This document shows, one piece after another, positions 3,060-25,890 of a stretch of DNA of 64,000 bases (position 1 is the stretch's first letter; the number at the start of each line of letters is the position of its first letter). The position numbers were made by a program, and so were the translations under genes. Source of the DNA: Muribaculaceae bacterium (GTDB lineage Bacteria; Bacteroidota; Bacteroidia; Bacteroidales; Muribaculaceae). The stretch covers positions 1 to 64,000 of the forward strand of contig CAJSYI010000001.1 in NCBI GenBank assembly GCA_910573745.1, given 5' to 3'. A model generated the notes under the pieces. The model was not told where the DNA came from and did not search any database. It saw only the letters and a program-made list of their open reading frames with translations.

Positions 3060-3264
3060 TTTTATCGTTCATTATGTTATTCATTTTTACAAAAGCTTTC
3101 GCCTGTTTCTCACTAAAAGCAAAAGATTTAATCAGCACTTCAATCTTCGCTTTATCCAGACACCTACGACAATATGGATGTTCAGGAATATCCGGATCAA
3201 TCAATGGCCAAAAAGCCACTGCTGGTTTACCACATACGCAGCATTTACATTCAGAGGCTTTCAT
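3052..3264 (-). CDS. Small zinc-finger-like protein
   Basis: 70 aa, ATG. Cysteines occur as CKCC-x2-C near the N-terminus and CRRC near residue 35, suggesting a zinc-binding fold. It overlaps both neighbours and so belongs to the same operon. Function unknown. Confidence 0.6.
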   Translation of the reverse strand: MKASECKCCVCGKPAVAFWPLIDPDIPEHPYCRRCLDKAKIEVLIKSFAFSEKQAKAFVKMNNIMNDKNE

Positions 3265-3511
3265 CGGTTTTCGGAGGATGAGTGATTCGGAAACTGGAGT
3301 TGGGCTCCTTACTGGTTCGATTAGTCCACAAGACGTATTTATCAGGGCCTAAACTATCACTGGGATCTGGAAATAGAATACCCCAGCAATAGTATTTGTT
3401 ACCTTTAGAATCCTTGGAAATGCGTCCATGCTTTACAGCGTATAAAACACATTCCAACGCATCGACATCTGGGATGTCATCGTCAACAGTGATTGTTATT
3501 CGTTTGCTCAT
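3251..3511 (-). CDS. Hypothetical protein
   Basis: 86 aa, ATG. Family not recognised. The N-terminus reads as a beta strand (KRITITVDDD) followed by a helix. It overlaps the downstream zinc-finger gene by 14 nt. Confidence 0.55.
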   Translation of the reverse strand: MSKRITITVDDDIPDVDALECVLYAVKHGRISKDSKGNKYYCWGILFPDPSDSLGPDKYVLWTNRTSKEPNSSFRITHPPKTDESL

Positions 3512-11508: not shown

Positions 11509-12591
11509 TTATTTACGCCACTCAGCCATCTTGGCTTCGATGTTGATATGGTTAGTTTCAAGGAACTCTTTGAGGATGCCAAGCATCTTGTAACCCTCCA
11601 GAGTTTTATCATTCATATACCCATAGAGGCTTACCATAGAGAGATTGGCGGTTGGGGCGGTTGGGAACACATATCCGTGAAATAGGATCAGGTTCTTCAG
11701 CGTATAGAACGCACCGACACCTTTGTAGGCATCTTTGAACGCCGGGCTCTGGGGTGTGCCATAAGCAAGCCACGTTTTCTTAACCTCGTTGTGGAACTTG
11801 GCAAGTGCCGAGTAGAGGTTTTGAGGGGTCTTGGCTCTGCGAATGTTATCGAGCGCATGGTACAGCGGACGATACACCTTTGCCGACAGATCGCTGACAA
11901 AAATGTCTCGCTTGTAGAGGTGAACGTAAGGTACACCCTTGCATTTACGCTTTTTTAGAGTCTTGATGTGATTCTCCAGCTGCACGATGTAGTGTTCAGC
12001 CATAGCGACCACCACTTCTTTGTTGAACCAGCGGTTACGTTCTGCAAAGTTTTCTTTGTCGTTGATGAAGAGTTTGGCCTGAACGCGGAACTCTTCGACG
12101 GTCATCTCCCAGGAGTATTTATACCCCTTTCGATTGAGGGCTTCGGTGAACCCCATAGGGTGGCGTTCTTTATACCCTTTCTGAGTGAGCATGTGGAACA
12201 TCTGGGCCATAACCCAACGACGGAAGAGACGGCGATTGGGTACAGTCTTACCAGTGATGATTGCTGTGAAGATAGGGTCGTCATCCGGCACCGGCTGGAA
12301 GAAACCGCCCTTACGACGTACAAGGACATCTGAACCATCTGCGCCCTGCATAGAAAAGAGGTTGCTGACATTTACACCAGCGGCACGGAGTGCTTCGATT
12401 TTAGCCTGAGTGCGATTGCTCCGGGTAGCACCAGGGATGTGAACGTGAAGTTCGTCAATCTGAACGGTTGATGACTGAGGGCCGCAATTGTGAGTGTCGG
12501 CGGCTGATACAGTAAGTTCAGTGCCACATGCCGGGCAATTGAATTTGATTTCTGACATGGTTGTTTTTTGTTTAGGTGTTAATTTTTTCAT
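11509..12591 (-). CDS. Zinc-ribbon protein of unknown function
   Basis: 360 aa from 12591, where the ATG overlaps the upstream stop by 4 nt; an alternative ATG at 12558 gives 349 aa and starts just before the zinc ribbon. The N-terminus carries CPAC and a later Cys. The middle is basic and helical with RRLFRRWVMAQMFHML, and a KKRKCKG stretch follows. DNA or RNA binding is plausible. No family was recognised. Last-but-one gene before the hairpin array. Confidence 0.55.
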   Translation of the reverse strand: MKKLTPKQKTTMSEIKFNCPACGTELTVSAADTHNCGPQSSTVQIDELHVHIPGATRSNRTQAKIEALRAAGVNVSNLFSMQGADGSDVLVRRKGGFFQPVPDDDPIFTAIITGKTVPNRRLFRRWVMAQMFHMLTQKGYKERHPMGFTEALNRKGYKYSWEMTVEEFRVQAKLFINDKENFAERNRWFNKEVVVAMAEHYIVQLENHIKTLKKRKCKGVPYVHLYKRDIFVSDLSAKVYRPLYHALDNIRRAKTPQNLYSALAKFHNEVKKTWLAYGTPQSPAFKDAYKGVGAFYTLKNLILFHGYVFPTAPTANLSMVSLYGYMNDKTLEGYKMLGILKEFLETNHINIEAKMAEWRK

Positions 12592-13052
12592 TCGTTGTTC
12601 GTATTTTGTGGTTCAATCCATTCTCGAAGAAGAATGAGGTCTTTGTTTTCAGGCGATTGCCAAAACCATAATCCTTTGGCAAAATCGTCCCATTTTAGCG
12701 AGCCATTAAGAATTACGCCAAGCACATAAAGTTCAAGTGCAATCTGAGTGTATTCCCTTGACCGACCGTAGAGCATATCTTCATCATTTAGTAAATGTTC
12801 TGGGAGGGATTTGAAATAACATTTACGTTTATTCTCACTTCTCTCAGATGGAAGACTATGCTGGTAGCGAGTGTAGAGTTGTGTGATTTGTTCTAATGGA
12901 GAATCGGTCAACTCTACACCAAGTTCACCATCATACTTGCCGTCTTTGATGACGTATTTGCCATCTATCTTCAGGCTTCGATTCTGAAAGTTGACGCGGA
13001 ATCGTGATCCATTCTCAACTTTTGCAAGTGCTTGTTCGTATATTGTATTCAT
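12588..13052 (-). CDS. Hypothetical protein
   Basis: 154 aa, ATG. N-terminal strands (SRFRVNFQNRSLKIDGKYVI), then helices. Family unknown. It is the promoter-proximal gene of the operon whose upstream edge is the hairpin array; its ATG lies only 35 nt from the first conserved box of the array. Confidence 0.55.
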   Translation of the reverse strand: MNTIYEQALAKVENGSRFRVNFQNRSLKIDGKYVIKDGKYDGELGVELTDSPLEQITQLYTRYQHSLPSERSENKRKCYFKSLPEHLLNDEDMLYGRSREYTQIALELYVLGVILNGSLKWDDFAKGLWFWQSPENKDLILLREWIEPQNTNNE

Positions 13053-13086
13053 TGCTAATTAAAAATTGGATGCTCAAAGTCTTGGC

Positions 13087-13110
13087 GTATTTCTTTATTC
13101 TCTCGATCAT
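13087..13110 (+). promoter_or_regulatory. Conserved box upstream of hairpin unit 1 (type example)
   Basis: GTATTTCTTTATTCTCTCGAT here recurs, diverged, before all eight hairpins, e.g. near 13246, 13428, 13598, 14119 and 14277. In several copies it contains a near or exact TAnnTTTG (TATATTTG in unit 3, TAAATTTG in unit 4), so it may be a promoter that starts each hairpin RNA. No -33 TTTG is evident. Confidence 0.45.
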
Positions 13111-14410
13111 AATCAGGATGATGAATCGACGAGAAACAGGGATCGTCCTGTTACTCGTCGATTTATTAAGATCCTGATGGTAAACTTGGACTTCTTGCAT
13201 GGGTTAATGTTACGCTACATTTTTCACAATTTCATTCAGTTTGGCACATTACTGTATTCTTGCGATGATGGAGCTGGTTTGAGCGGCGCTCCTGATGAGT
13301 CATCTGGCCACGGTAACAACCTGGCCCGATGACTCATAAGGTTCCCGCATCTTTACCAGCTCGGCTAAACTTACTGACCTTAATTGTGAGATTCTGTACT
13401 GAAATCATGATTCTCAAAACATTGATGCGTTTCTATATTTGCTTGATGTAATCCAGATTGGAAGCATACGACGCCGGCCTTACCGCTCGACAGGGCTGTA
13501 ATGCCGGCGTCGTAGAGCTTATTAAGATCTGGATGACTAAAGTTTGTTTTCTTGAACCATATTGTCGCATTACATAGAATCCTCAAACGAAATGGTATAT
13601 TACTATATAAATTTGATGTTTCTCCTTCATGTTGGGCTGCGCGACAGGCCGGACAGGGCGTAGAGGGCAGCCCTTAACTGAAGGATGATACTAAACAATC
13701 GTCGCTTGGATTCTTGCCATATACTTAGCCATTATCATTTGTCATGTTTGTAGTATGTCCCTTTATGTTCGTGATACACAACTGTATTATGGACGTATGC
13801 CCAGTAAGAGGTCATCTTTGATAAGAGATGAACGATACTGGGCACAACGTCCGTTGATACAGTATTGTTAAATATCAAACCATTCAAATGACACTGCATA
13901 CTCAGTTTGCTGACAGTCAAGCAATATTACACATTTCTCTATCCTTATGATAATGTACGATGTCATCTGACAGACCCACGAGGTCAGCGTCAAATCTTAC
14001 GGGTACCGGAAGTTTGACTCAGCCCTCGTGGTTCTGGATTTGAGGATCGTATTTGAATTTGTTGCCATTCTGTCAATTACTTTGTGCTAAGTTATAAGAG
14101 AAAGTCATACTCATTATATGTTTCTTTATTATTCCGATTGATAGATGGAAGCTTGTCTTCTGAGTCATCCACAGATATGGGATGACTCAGAAGATATAGT
14201 TCCATCTTAAATAAATGTTGAGCCATTCTTTCTCAGTCTGCATATTCAGATTATATATGATGTCAAGTTACTTGGTATGTCACTTTAGTTTGACGATATA
14301 TGCCGCCTGTATGGTGTTGCATCCAGGACCGATAATCCTGGATGCTGCCATTAAGCGCGGCAGATTGAATCGCTACAACTCTTCATCATATTCCGCATAC
14401 TCGGTATTCT
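13087..14410 (+). repeat. Array of eight diverged hairpin units (RT-associated)
   Basis: No gene fits here. Eight long hairpins occur at 13112-13178, 13271-13362, 13451-13534, 13623-13685, 13781-13863, 13957-14050, 14143-14207 and 14294-14372, a period of 151-186 nt. Most have an outer stem of 5-8 bp, an internal loop, and an inner stem of 7-15 bp (for example AATCGACGAG/CTCGTCGATT, ACGACGCCGGC/GCCGGCGTCGT). The stem sequences differ in every unit yet still pair, so structure rather than sequence is conserved. Each is preceded by a conserved box close to TTTCTTTATTnTTnCGAT and most are followed by TAAA. The box gives the array a plus orientation, converging on the RT gene. Confidence 0.75.
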
Positions 14411-15673
14411 TTATAAGTTAGCAATCAGTGTTCTATAAGCGGCTCGATTAGTCACCAAGGCGTTCTGCATACAGTTCAGCGTAAGATAACCGGAAATCTG
14501 TTTCTCAGTTTTCTTTCGGTTGGCTCGAACATTTCTGCCAATACCTCGCTGGATGCAGCCTTCAGCCTGAGTAGCTACAAAACCAAGGCCACCTACCTTT
14601 TTCTTTTTAGTCACTACGGCCCGTAAACAATCCATAACGAACTCATTGAGTGTTTGGATGTCTTTCTTAACGTTACATACTGAAAGAATCTGGGTCGCCC
14701 AGCTAAACTCGCCATTGCCGTGATATAAATAACGGTTAACAGCGTTAATGGCCTTGCGAAGTGTAGTATCTCTCAGACGGATAGTACGAGCTTCAATTTC
14801 TTTTTGGAATGTCTTTATACGTGTCGGACTCATTGATATGTCTGCTCCTTTGATTGAATATCCCAAGAATTTGAACCACCGTAATGGAGTTAGATATTCA
14901 ATTTTTTTAGGATTAAGTTTCATATCACGTTTTGCAACTTCATCTTCCATAATTACCATTGCTTTCTGGTAATCAGGGCCAACAAAGAGTGCGTCATCAG
15001 AATACCGAACATATTCACCATTCAAGGCGCTCAGACGTTCATCAAGCGAATACATGATTACATTTGCAAGCCACGATGCAACTGAACAGCCTTGCTTCAA
15101 AGACTGGTAGGTTTCTTTCAGTGTACCATCAATGTCAAAATAGAGGTCGCAATGATAATACTTACGTAGAACATCTATGATTGCTGAATGTCCGTGTTTG
15201 GCTTCTACTGCATCAAAAACTTCGTCTATGAACCGAATCGGCACCGAATCAAAGTATTTGCTGAAGTCAGACTTCCAGCCAATCACATCGCCTTTGGTTT
15301 CACAGATTCTCCGAGAAATGTCTTGTACGACTTTTCCACACCCAATTCCTTTCTGATATGAGGTACAAGCCGGATGTATCATCTCAGGCGTTAACTCAAA
15401 CAAAAGGTCATTGGCAATGCTGAGGAAAACACGGTCTATTGGTTCGTTGACATAGACGGTTCTGAACTCTCCGTTGTCTTTAGGGATTTGCGCTGTATGT
15501 GGTGGCGCAATTTCGTAGCGTCCTTCTTTAATAACCTGATACATTTCCGCTCTTTTTTCCGGCTTTGTCAATTGATAGAGATCAGACTTGCTGATATTCT
15601 TATCAACTCCTTTATCTAAAGCGTACTCCCAGCGGTCAGGCTCAAAGAACATTCGTAATATCTTGTCTTCCAT
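14411..15673 (-). CDS. Reverse transcriptase (not canonical DGR or retron type)
   Basis: 420 aa. Palm motifs are in order: motif A SDFSKYFDS with Asp136, motif B KQGCSVASWLAN at about 193-204, motif C YSDD with Asp226-Asp227, then KFLGYSI as the thumb-proximal GY motif. The region 300-420 is a basic C-terminal domain with GGLGF and a GIGRNVRANRKKTEKQ stretch. Motif B lacks the GxxxSQ pattern of typical DGR enzymes, and no maturase/HNH domain is present, so it is not a group II intron protein. The gene's 3' end abuts the hairpin array and its start is 900 bp downstream of a DGR-like variable gene. Either could be its partner. Confidence 0.85.
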   Translation of the reverse strand: MEDKILRMFFEPDRWEYALDKGVDKNISKSDLYQLTKPEKRAEMYQVIKEGRYEIAPPHTAQIPKDNGEFRTVYVNEPIDRVFLSIANDLLFELTPEMIHPACTSYQKGIGCGKVVQDISRRICETKGDVIGWKSDFSKYFDSVPIRFIDEVFDAVEAKHGHSAIIDVLRKYYHCDLYFDIDGTLKETYQSLKQGCSVASWLANVIMYSLDERLSALNGEYVRYSDDALFVGPDYQKAMVIMEDEVAKRDMKLNPKKIEYLTPLRWFKFLGYSIKGADISMSPTRIKTFQKEIEARTIRLRDTTLRKAINAVNRYLYHGNGEFSWATQILSVCNVKKDIQTLNEFVMDCLRAVVTKKKKVGGLGFVATQAEGCIQRGIGRNVRANRKKTEKQISGYLTLNCMQNALVTNRAAYRTLIANL

Positions 15674-16574: not shown

Positions 16575-16694
16575 TTAGATAAATGCTGCCACTGCCCGCA
16601 CATCGTTACTGCCGTACTTGCTGTAGTTGTAGAAGTTCCCTGAGCCGAAGTAGACGCGCCAGGCGTGGCTGCTGGAGTGCTCAGTGGAGGCCCA
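16575..16694 (-). repeat. Variable repeat VR1
   Basis: Spans the final 39 codons and stop. Invariant positions are identical to VR2 (25198-25317), and variable codons are CAC, AGC, CAC, CGC, AAC, TAC, AAC, TAC, AAC, GAT. A parent AAC/AAT codon at each site explains every difference by adenine mutagenesis. The template repeat was not found in this window. Confidence 0.75.
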
Positions 16695-17315
16695 GTAATA
16701 CTTGTCGAACAACAGCGGGTCGCCACCAACAAGTTTCAGAAGATCATTGATTTCTTCCTTATAGGCGCAGATTGTACCGAGTTCCAACAGACTGGGGAGA
16801 TACCACTGGAGCTCCTTATGATTGTAGTTCCAGCAAAGTTTAGCGGCTGTATCACCTTCATCTTCCTGAGCTTCGACAAGCTGTCGGGTATGCTCTAAGC
16901 CAGAAAGGATTTGCATGGCCTGCGCTTCATTGTGTTCACCAGTGATACAATGATCAGTGTCTTCACTCCAGCGCTCTTTCCACTGTTTAAGGGAAACAAT
17001 GAATGAAAGCAGCGGAGTACGAACAGCTATACCGACCACTTGGTCTTTGCTGTATTTCTCGGAACCGGCAGTCCATTCAACTTTTGTGACACATCGTCCG
17101 TCGTCCAGCACTATAAAGAATTGGGGTTCTGAAACATTTGCAGTTTCTGTAACATTGACATTGAAGTCAATTCGTCCATTACCCTGACAGGTCTGCTCAT
17201 TTTCGAGCCAAGCAAGTTTTCTTCTATTGGTCTCGTTAGCGATAAAATTAAGAGCGTCCTGAGCTTTATCGCCGAACTCACGGAATAAATCCGTTAGTAC
17301 AATTGTTTTTTTCAT
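16575..17315 (-). CDS. DGR-type variable protein 1 (C-type-lectin/DUF1566-like tail)
   Basis: 246 aa, ATG. The C-terminal 65 residues (WYLPSLLELGTI onward, then YYWASTEHSSSHAWRVYFGS) match the DUF1566/formylglycine-enzyme-like C-lectin fold used by DGR targets, where ligand-binding residues vary. The last 39 codons (16578-16694) are the variable region. Compared with the second copy, 14 bases differ, all at codon positions 1-2 of ten NNC/NNT codons. The N-terminal 180 residues have no recognised domain. It is not in the tail module, so it may be a secreted or surface-active factor, or a minor virion protein. Confidence 0.75.
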   Translation of the reverse strand: MKKTIVLTDLFREFGDKAQDALNFIANETNRRKLAWLENEQTCQGNGRIDFNVNVTETANVSEPQFFIVLDDGRCVTKVEWTAGSEKYSKDQVVGIAVRTPLLSFIVSLKQWKERWSEDTDHCITGEHNEAQAMQILSGLEHTRQLVEAQEDEGDTAAKLCWNYNHKELQWYLPSLLELGTICAYKEEINDLLKLVGGDPLLFDKYYWASTEHSSSHAWRVYFGSGNFYNYSKYGSNDVRAVAAFI

Positions 17316-25197: not shown

Positions 25198-25317
25198 TTA
25201 GATAAATGCTGCCACTGCCCGCACAACGATACTGCCGTACTTGCTGTTGTAGCCGAAGTACCCTGAGCCGAAGTAGACGAACCAGGCGCCGTCGCTGGAG
25301 TTCTCAGTGGAGGCCCA
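25198..25317 (-). repeat. Variable repeat VR2
   Basis: Final 39 codons and stop of variable protein 2. Variable codons relative to VR1 are AAC, GAC, GGC, TTC, TAC, GGC, TAC, AAC, ATC, GTT, all with invariant third base. The remaining 29 codons are identical to VR1 at the DNA level, although the N-terminal parts of the two genes are unrelated by eye. Confidence 0.75.
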
Positions 25318-25890
25318 GGTCCACTTCAGTAACTTGTCGCCACCGACTTTCTCCAGTGCTTCGTTGACCTTGGTGAGATTCATGCAGATGATGGTTAGCT
25401 CACCAGCTGAAGGAATCCATTCGCCATCGTTGAGCGGAATCTGACAACCATAAGATTTCAGACGCTCGGTGTTGCCCTTACCATCGAAGTCTTCGTGGGC
25501 ATTGAAGCGGTATGTGTCAGTGTTGCGATCCCAACTGTAGTGCGGAGAATCTTTAGGGCATTTATCAGTGTCCGGGAGCAACGGAAGCTCACCGTCTTCG
25601 TCACCGGGGATGTCGTGGAGAGTCACGGCGACACTGTGGTTGCCACACTTGACGCCAATGTACTTGACTTCAGCGCTGGGGTTCTGCCCATTGTACTGCT
25701 CGATTGAACCGTCTTCGTAAATGTAGTAAATACCATCGGCGATGTCGGGGCGAATGTCGGCAAGAGCTGCACGGCGATATTCAGTGTAATCCGGCTTACC
25801 GCCGAATACGAACTCGTGTGCCTCCATTGCTTGCTGGAGGTTGGGGAACTCACGGAAGAGTTCCATGCGTTTTGTTTCTGAAGGTGTCAT
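25198..25890 (-). CDS. DGR-type variable protein 2
   Basis: 230 aa, ATG. The N-terminal region contains YYIYEDGSIEQYNG and GVKCGNHSVAVTLHDIP segments of unknown fold. From about residue 165 (GEWIPSAGELTIICMN) to the end it has the DUF1566/C-lectin pattern with WTWASTENSSDGAWFVYFGS. The tail RAVAAFI is the same as in protein 1. Different N-terminal scaffold with an identical recombining tail implies that one template diversifies two separate proteins. Confidence 0.75.
   Translation of the reverse strand: MTPSETKRMELFREFPNLQQAMEAHEFVFGGKPDYTEYRRAALADIRPDIADGIYYIYEDGSIEQYNGQNPSAEVKYIGVKCGNHSVAVTLHDIPGDEDGELPLLPDTDKCPKDSPHYSWDRNTDTYRFNAHEDFDGKGNTERLKSYGCQIPLNDGEWIPSAGELTIICMNLTKVNEALEKVGGDKLLKWTWASTENSSDGAWFVYFGSGYFGYNSKYGSIVVRAVAAFI

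Follow-up and report, generated by a model that had tools for sequence, protein, structure and literature searches.

A phage-borne UG27 reverse transcriptase locus with a tandem array of predicted structured RNA units

Why should a reverse transcriptase (RT) gene be followed by more than a kilobase of gene-free DNA that folds into one long hairpin after another? The question is raised by a stretch of 64,000 nucleotides from a Muribaculaceae bacterium (hereafter the window, meaning this whole stretch), which is part of the 191-kb contig C1 in a 3.08-Mb genome assembly. A tailed phage is encoded there, with tail sheath, tape measure, head protease, NAD-dependent ligase, ParA, and anti-repressor. 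An earlier note, made from the letters of the sequence, had described an RT beside eight hairpins that differ in sequence and share their pairing, and had proposed that the RT copies each hairpin RNA into a separate cDNA.

The UG27 locus and its eight units

The RT matches the PADLOC UG27 profile over its full length (1–420 of 420 positions) and also matches Pfam RVT_1. Its YSDD active site is intact, and [YF]xDD is found in 26 of 26 aligned homologues. Among the PADLOC profiles, UG26 and Drt9 are nearest to RT_UG27; UG26 relatives were sought for comparison in 295 genomes and none was found, the control being equally silent. The genes and units of the locus are as follows, with bit scores for the units from the covariance model R2.

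14411..15673, minus strand: UG27-type reverse transcriptase, 420 aa (PADLOC RT_UG27, 760.6 bits, E 1e-229)
14255..14391, minus strand: predicted ncRNA unit 1, hairpin 14362-14298 (R2 40.3 bits; fold z -5.65)
14097..14235, minus strand: predicted ncRNA unit 2, hairpin 14207-14143 (R2 28.4 bits; fold z -9.41)
13909..14077, minus strand: predicted ncRNA unit 3, hairpin 14036-13971 (R2 24.5 bits; fold z -4.56)
13739..13887, minus strand: predicted ncRNA unit 4, hairpin 13863-13781 (weak R2, 12 bits; core motif score 14.7; fold z -9.15)
13575..13715, minus strand: predicted ncRNA unit 5, hairpin 13691-13619 (R2 47.5 bits; fold z -4.12)
13406..13561, minus strand: predicted ncRNA unit 6, hairpin 13534-13451 (R2 77.8 bits, full alignment; fold z -7.21)
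13224..13389, minus strand: predicted ncRNA unit 7, hairpin 13362-13271 (R2 42.1 bits; fold z -8.39)
13070..13200, minus strand: predicted ncRNA unit 8, hairpin 13178-13112 (R2 30.3 bits; fold z -7.14)
12588..13052, minus strand: RTas346, 154 aa, RT partner (PADLOC RTas346, E 2e-67)
11509..12591, minus strand: RTas337, 360 aa, with an N-terminal CPxCG zinc-ribbon-like motif (PADLOC RTas337, E 4e-136)

The 3' end of the RT (15673-14411, minus strand) faces about 1.36 kb without plausible genes; the gene-free stretch between the RT stop and the RTas346 start measures 1358 nt (14410-13053). Eight units, spaced by about 170 nt, occupy it on the RT-sense strand (14391-13070). Folding finds exactly the eight hairpins that the earlier note had counted, with a centre spacing of 156–182 nt where that note gave 151–186, and every hairpin beats 200 of 200 dinucleotide shuffles (z -4.1 to -9.4). 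The conserved 3'-core motif has eight matches in the array, and covariance model R2, a kind of check that the earlier note had suggested, matches seven of the units at E<=0.005 and unit 4 weakly (12 bits, E about 1). The eight units of the window are one sequence and structure family. No Rfam family reaches its gathering threshold in the array, other similarity to Rfam being at chance level only.

The earlier note took the system to be the RT plus the array; both belong to it, as do two proteins that the note did not name. RTas337 and RTas346 are the two PADLOC partners of UG27, and both are full-length matches. Among distinct RT loci with at least 1.4 kb of downstream sequence, RTas346 is present in 87 of 87 and RTas337 in 86 of 87; other RT neighbours are not conserved across loci. 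In 13 loci (L031, L039, L062, L063, L084, L086, L138, L140, L141, L143, L144, L149, and L151) the RT and RTas346 form a single open reading frame of about 530–600 aa, which points to a partnership between the two, whether physical or functional. Profile and structure searches assigned no known enzyme domain to RTas337 or RTas346: the AF2 models of RTas346 (pLDDT 91.7) and RTas337 (pLDDT 78) found no convincing match in the PDB, and RTas346 has one match, to an uncharacterised phage protein.

Tandem structured RNA units beside protein genes, with partner proteins that lack a known enzyme domain, are also what one would see if the units were never copied and instead bound protein, for example as an antidote or decoy array that restrains the RT and RTas proteins after the fashion of the RNA antitoxins of type III toxin–antitoxin systems. 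The RNA repeats of those systems are near-identical and are processed by the toxin, whereas the array hairpins are wholly different from one another and adjoin an RT, whose catalytic motif is kept in all 26 homologues. We consider this reading improbable.

Two further genes deserve mention. An RNA ligase domain protein (Pfam PF09414; 9810-10589, minus strand) lies a short way downstream of the system in the window, and a second RT gene in the same assembly (contig C9, 1753-2454; L043) is 25% identical and unclassified.

Linkage of the array to the RT across loci

RT homologues came from IMG/VR contigs, from Bacteroides phage BS-TP1, and from the genomes of Bacteroides, Phocaeicola, Prevotella, Alistipes, Butyricimonas, Muribaculaceae, and relatives; the carriers of UG27-RT arrays are for the most part gut Bacteroidales phages and prophages. 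Of the 87 distinct RT genes followed by 1.4 kb or more of sequence, motif scanning finds units at 85, and the other two (L168 and L171) have strong hairpin arrays by folding. RT homologues lacking an array, which the earlier note had named beforehand as refuting its reading, are therefore not found among these 87. The second refuting observation would have been an array without an RT, and none was found: in the host family the RNA model matches 7 of 397 genomes, all among the 12 that bear the RT, and of 11 motif matches in viral contigs nine lie in RT contigs, the remaining two (L047 and L052) matching a fragment only.

The median unit spacing across loci is 171.5 nt, and relatives carry from one to about twelve units per RT. 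The position of the array varies: it may lie behind the RT, between an RT–RTas346 fusion and RTas337, or behind RTas337. Two or more units stand behind RTas337 in 21 loci; L035 has five units before RTas337 and seven after it, and in L021, where both partners precede the RT, the array still lies behind the RT. In our judgement it is highly probable that the RT has this array as its RNA partner.

In phage BS-TP1, the UG27 RT (gp79; PQ571274.1 79351-80613, corresponding to L041 8001-9263) carries the annotation "tail protein", and the unannotated 1.35-kb stretch behind it has eight units by motif scan.

Architecture, strand behaviour, and evolution of the unit

Each unit combines a covarying closing helix (P1) that has a conserved internal loop, the sequence UUYAAU, a long hairpin that varies between units, and a conserved core. 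Read from 5' to 3' in DNA letters, the order is the P1 5' arm, AAG, P1 continued, TTYAAT, P2 with the variable long hairpin, the core, P1 continued, TGA, and the P1 3' arm. The core is the most conserved part; its RNA form is AUCAAA-N3-AUAAAG-N-AAUGUGCC, and its DNA consensus over 30 representative loci is ATCAAA-N3-ATAAAG-N-AATGTGCCA. In 30 arrays the core motif matches 155 times on the RT strand, with a single match each for the reverse strand and for shuffled sequence. The earlier note had equated the unit with its hairpin; the hairpin is indeed present, but the conserved scaffold around it belongs to the unit as well. At E<=0.01, a covariance model built from the matches recovers 185 units, spread over 61 loci, all of them on the RT strand in RT-oriented loci and on the minus strand, like the RT, in the window and L060.

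That the units differ in sequence and keep their pairing reflects true covariation, as seen in a P1 swap test, a covariation score, and compensatory changes. Own P1 arms pair at -14.1 kcal/mol vs -6.7 for swapped arms, and the own arm is better in 171 of 177 units that had not been selected on P1 (p 2e-30). In a gapless set of 33 units (A5), which was picked by pairing register so that its pairing percentages lean towards structure, all 21 pairs have changed on both sides, and the covariation score is 0.617 vs 0.212 for shuffled units (0/500) and 0.12–0.21 for slid partners. This set was used in place of the consensus alignment A4, in which P1 is misaligned and RNAalifold returns no structure. 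P2 pairing entered in part into the selection, and we therefore base no claim on P2. The hairpin pairs of related units show 51 double compensatory vs 48 single wobble-type changes.

We compared G-U with A-C pairs, setting pairing registers by Watson-Crick pairs only and taking the four inner pairs for P1. P1 has 28 G-U vs 3 A-C pairs (p 5e-6), and the long hairpin has 54 vs 60 (difference from P1, Fisher p 1e-5); this is a comparison of P1 with the hairpin of the same arrays, the external tRNA control having only 2 tRNAs. Hairpin counts by other rules agree (46:46 and 17:17). Other rules give a weaker result for P1 (13:9; pairwise 18:8, p 0.08, a trend only), and a fold-based pairwise count, in which spurious pairs are perhaps included, has no asymmetry (99:105). 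P1 tolerates G-U and not A-C and is therefore most likely kept as an RT-sense RNA. The long hairpin, to judge from these counts, appears to pair on both strands, as would be expected if a DNA copy of the hairpin must fold too, and this symmetry of the stem indirectly favours the copying of each hairpin into a separate cDNA that the earlier note had put forward. At the hairpin apex UAUC is over-represented (65 of 233 vs 13 in shuffles) and the complement GATA (9) is not, a strand-specific signal suggesting that the hairpin is to some extent recognised as RNA.

Strand-symmetric stems are equally predicted by a pure DNA element, and the reverse complement of the hairpins folds slightly better. 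The hairpins could then serve replication, packaging, or recombination as cruciform or single-strand sites, with the RT merely a neighbour. Such an element fits poorly with the strand-specific P1 and core, and the units occur only with the RT and stay with it through changes of gene order; we judge this explanation quite improbable. A promoter for every unit was also rejected, since the Bacteroides promoter consensus TAnnTTTG occurs in the arrays at chance level (7 vs 6.5).

Some members of the family have much smaller units. Five RT-bearing genomes in the 397-genome scan, all divergent, have no unit match; four of them (G127, G236, G405, and G423), scored alone, each have a single short unit, about 85 nt long, behind the RT, and the fifth (G369), whose RT is near a contig end, was left out of single scoring. 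A single minimal unit also accompanies the divergent RTs of L089 and G392, and the clade of L089, G127, G392, G405, and G423 has the minimal unit only, with a hairpin of 8–10 bp, so long hairpins are not needed by every family member. At the end of several minimal units a T run comes after P1, as in an intrinsic terminator. In the tree, a supported clade nested among the array RTs unites most RTs that have one unit, and the fused RTs group in a second clade. We set aside the single minimal unit as the ancestral form, since most such RTs fall in this one nested clade and the tree gives no direction. Minimal one-unit versions of about 85–88 nt from host genomes lie at L089 5774-5859, L225 633-720 (minus strand), and L221 3304-3389. 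A far relative in the same host genus (L226, 42% identity) has a unit-like structure with a T run at 3155-3330, between an upstream RTas337-like protein and a fused RT.

The core, the most conserved part of the unit, is kept in these minimal versions without a long hairpin, and Class 2 DRTs copy a defined region of their ncRNA (PMC12632851, PMC13174585). Both observations would suit a template consisting of the constant single-stranded core, yielding a constant or repetitive cDNA as in DRT9 and DRT10, with the hairpins there for stability, dosage, or sensing, or to evade a phage inhibitor. Identity associations within the core, at offset 8, point the same way, although this signal is weak and uncorrected for relatedness or one-base register errors, and the pairing of the hairpins on both strands is left unexplained. 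We hold copying of the core to be possible, if unlikely.

Units are gained and lost as modules: comparison of L006 with L004 reveals a difference of exactly 165 nt, one unit, which is absent from L006. Orthologous units can be recognised between loci. In close pairs the hairpin stems are no more variable than the unpaired spacers, which disfavours mutagenic diversification. This bears on another reading, in which the locus is a diversity-generating retroelement (DGR) whose array is a template set that mutates other genes, or whose RT diversifies the hairpins. An Lcl_C gene does lie close to the RT (16575-17315), but the DGR that serves it is a separate one, which has a template-like repeat of its own as well as a YxDD protein (C1:72.2-73.7 kb), and the array has no second copy elsewhere in the genome. 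On these two grounds we rejected the array as a DGR template, and with the stems no more variable than spacers the DGR reading as a whole seems extremely implausible.

The separate DGR is of interest in itself. Two Lcl_C-type genes in the window (16575-17315 and 25198-25890, both minus strand) share a 161-bp 3' end at 84%, and a third ends near C1:71.6 kb (G000:C1:71523-71685). An A-rich template-like copy at C1:72330-72445 lies beside or within the reading frame of the YxDD protein (C1:72227-73657), and the Lcl_C differences fall mostly at A positions of this copy, which suggests that a single DGR acts in trans on three or more targets.

The hairpins have no match in the phage collection. Searched against the flanking phage and host DNA of the fetched loci, their stems give 3 matches of at least 32 bits vs 0 for shuffled stems, unmasked array sequence in L144 being excluded; these matches are not convincing, and on the phage collection and this flanking DNA we rejected the idea that the hairpins are guides copied from phage or host genes.

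Relation to known systems and a proposed mechanism

The UG27 DRT of PADLOC-DB 2.0.0 has the same three genes, RT, RTas346, and RTas337, that are found here in nearly all loci; its PADLOC models cover proteins only. The literature searched makes no mention of UG27 RTs, nor of an ncRNA or array for them, and an earlier mention is possible in the 2022 survey of UG/Abi RTs, which lay outside that search. A conserved, cis-encoded, structured ncRNA, the mark of Class 2 DRTs, is present here. DRT9 (UG28), DRT10, and DRT3a likewise pair a UG-group RT with a structured cis ncRNA, which they copy (PMC13174585, PMC12483538, PMC12632851). These systems are described with one ncRNA, whereas eight units are found here and up to about twelve diversified ones in relatives. 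What is new is a DRT-type system with the ncRNA multiplied and diversified, the RT group itself being already UG27 in PADLOC.

As in a retron, a closing helix (comparable to a1/a2) encloses a long variable hairpin, which could act as an msd does and of which a DNA copy is possible; the array differs in that its units lie downstream of the RT and in tandem. We rejected a retron on RT motifs and profiles: NAxxH occurs in 0 of 26 homologues and a conserved VTG in 3 of 26, and retron profiles score far below cut-off (NCBIfam retron_St85, 43.7 bits vs 235). A group II intron was rejected as well (TIGR04416, 92.5 bits vs a cut-off of 300; no Rfam match). Like CRISPR, the locus joins one protein set to an array in which each unit holds a different insert in a common frame. 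Unlike the short identical repeats of CRISPR, the array units are structured RNAs by prediction, and their hairpins match no other tested DNA clearly beyond chance; a CRISPR array was rejected, as near-identical direct repeats with unique spacers were not found in the region.

From the association of RT and array and from the structure of the units, we infer how the array may be expressed, copied, and used. The system would comprise the RT, RTas346, RTas337, and a cis-encoded structured RNA, here in eight tandem paralogous units. The array would be transcribed together with the RT; the RT with RTas346 would recognise the constant scaffold (P1 with its internal loop, UUYAAU, and AUCAAA..AUAAAG.AAUGUGCC) and copy the hairpin, not P1, into DNA, so that one enzyme would give rise to a set of DNA hairpins that differ from one another. 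Its role in phages and prophages would most likely be competition with other phages or an interaction with host defence, and the variety of hairpins may provide breadth or escape from recognition. Taken as a whole chain, a phage-borne UG27 DRT-type system with an ncRNA array whose hairpins the RT may copy into separate DNA hairpins is, in our estimate, evenly poised between right and wrong. Our broader generalisation, array-type reverse transcription, is tentative and leans slightly towards doubt: here RT and RTas346 would read a CRISPR-like series of scaffolded hairpin RNAs into distinct DNA hairpins, the units being modular and each hairpin selected on both strands.

The locus ties one enzyme family to a modular array of diversified RNAs, whereas descriptions of retrons and of the studied DRTs give each enzyme one RNA. 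Should the hairpins be copied, the system would be a natural multiplex writer of defined DNA hairpins whose scaffold could be re-loaded. If the hairpins prove to be separate templates, the system would deserve its own category; even if they are not copied, the array would supply the missing RNA partner of the unstudied UG27 group, together with a minimal 85–88-nt version that suits reconstitution.
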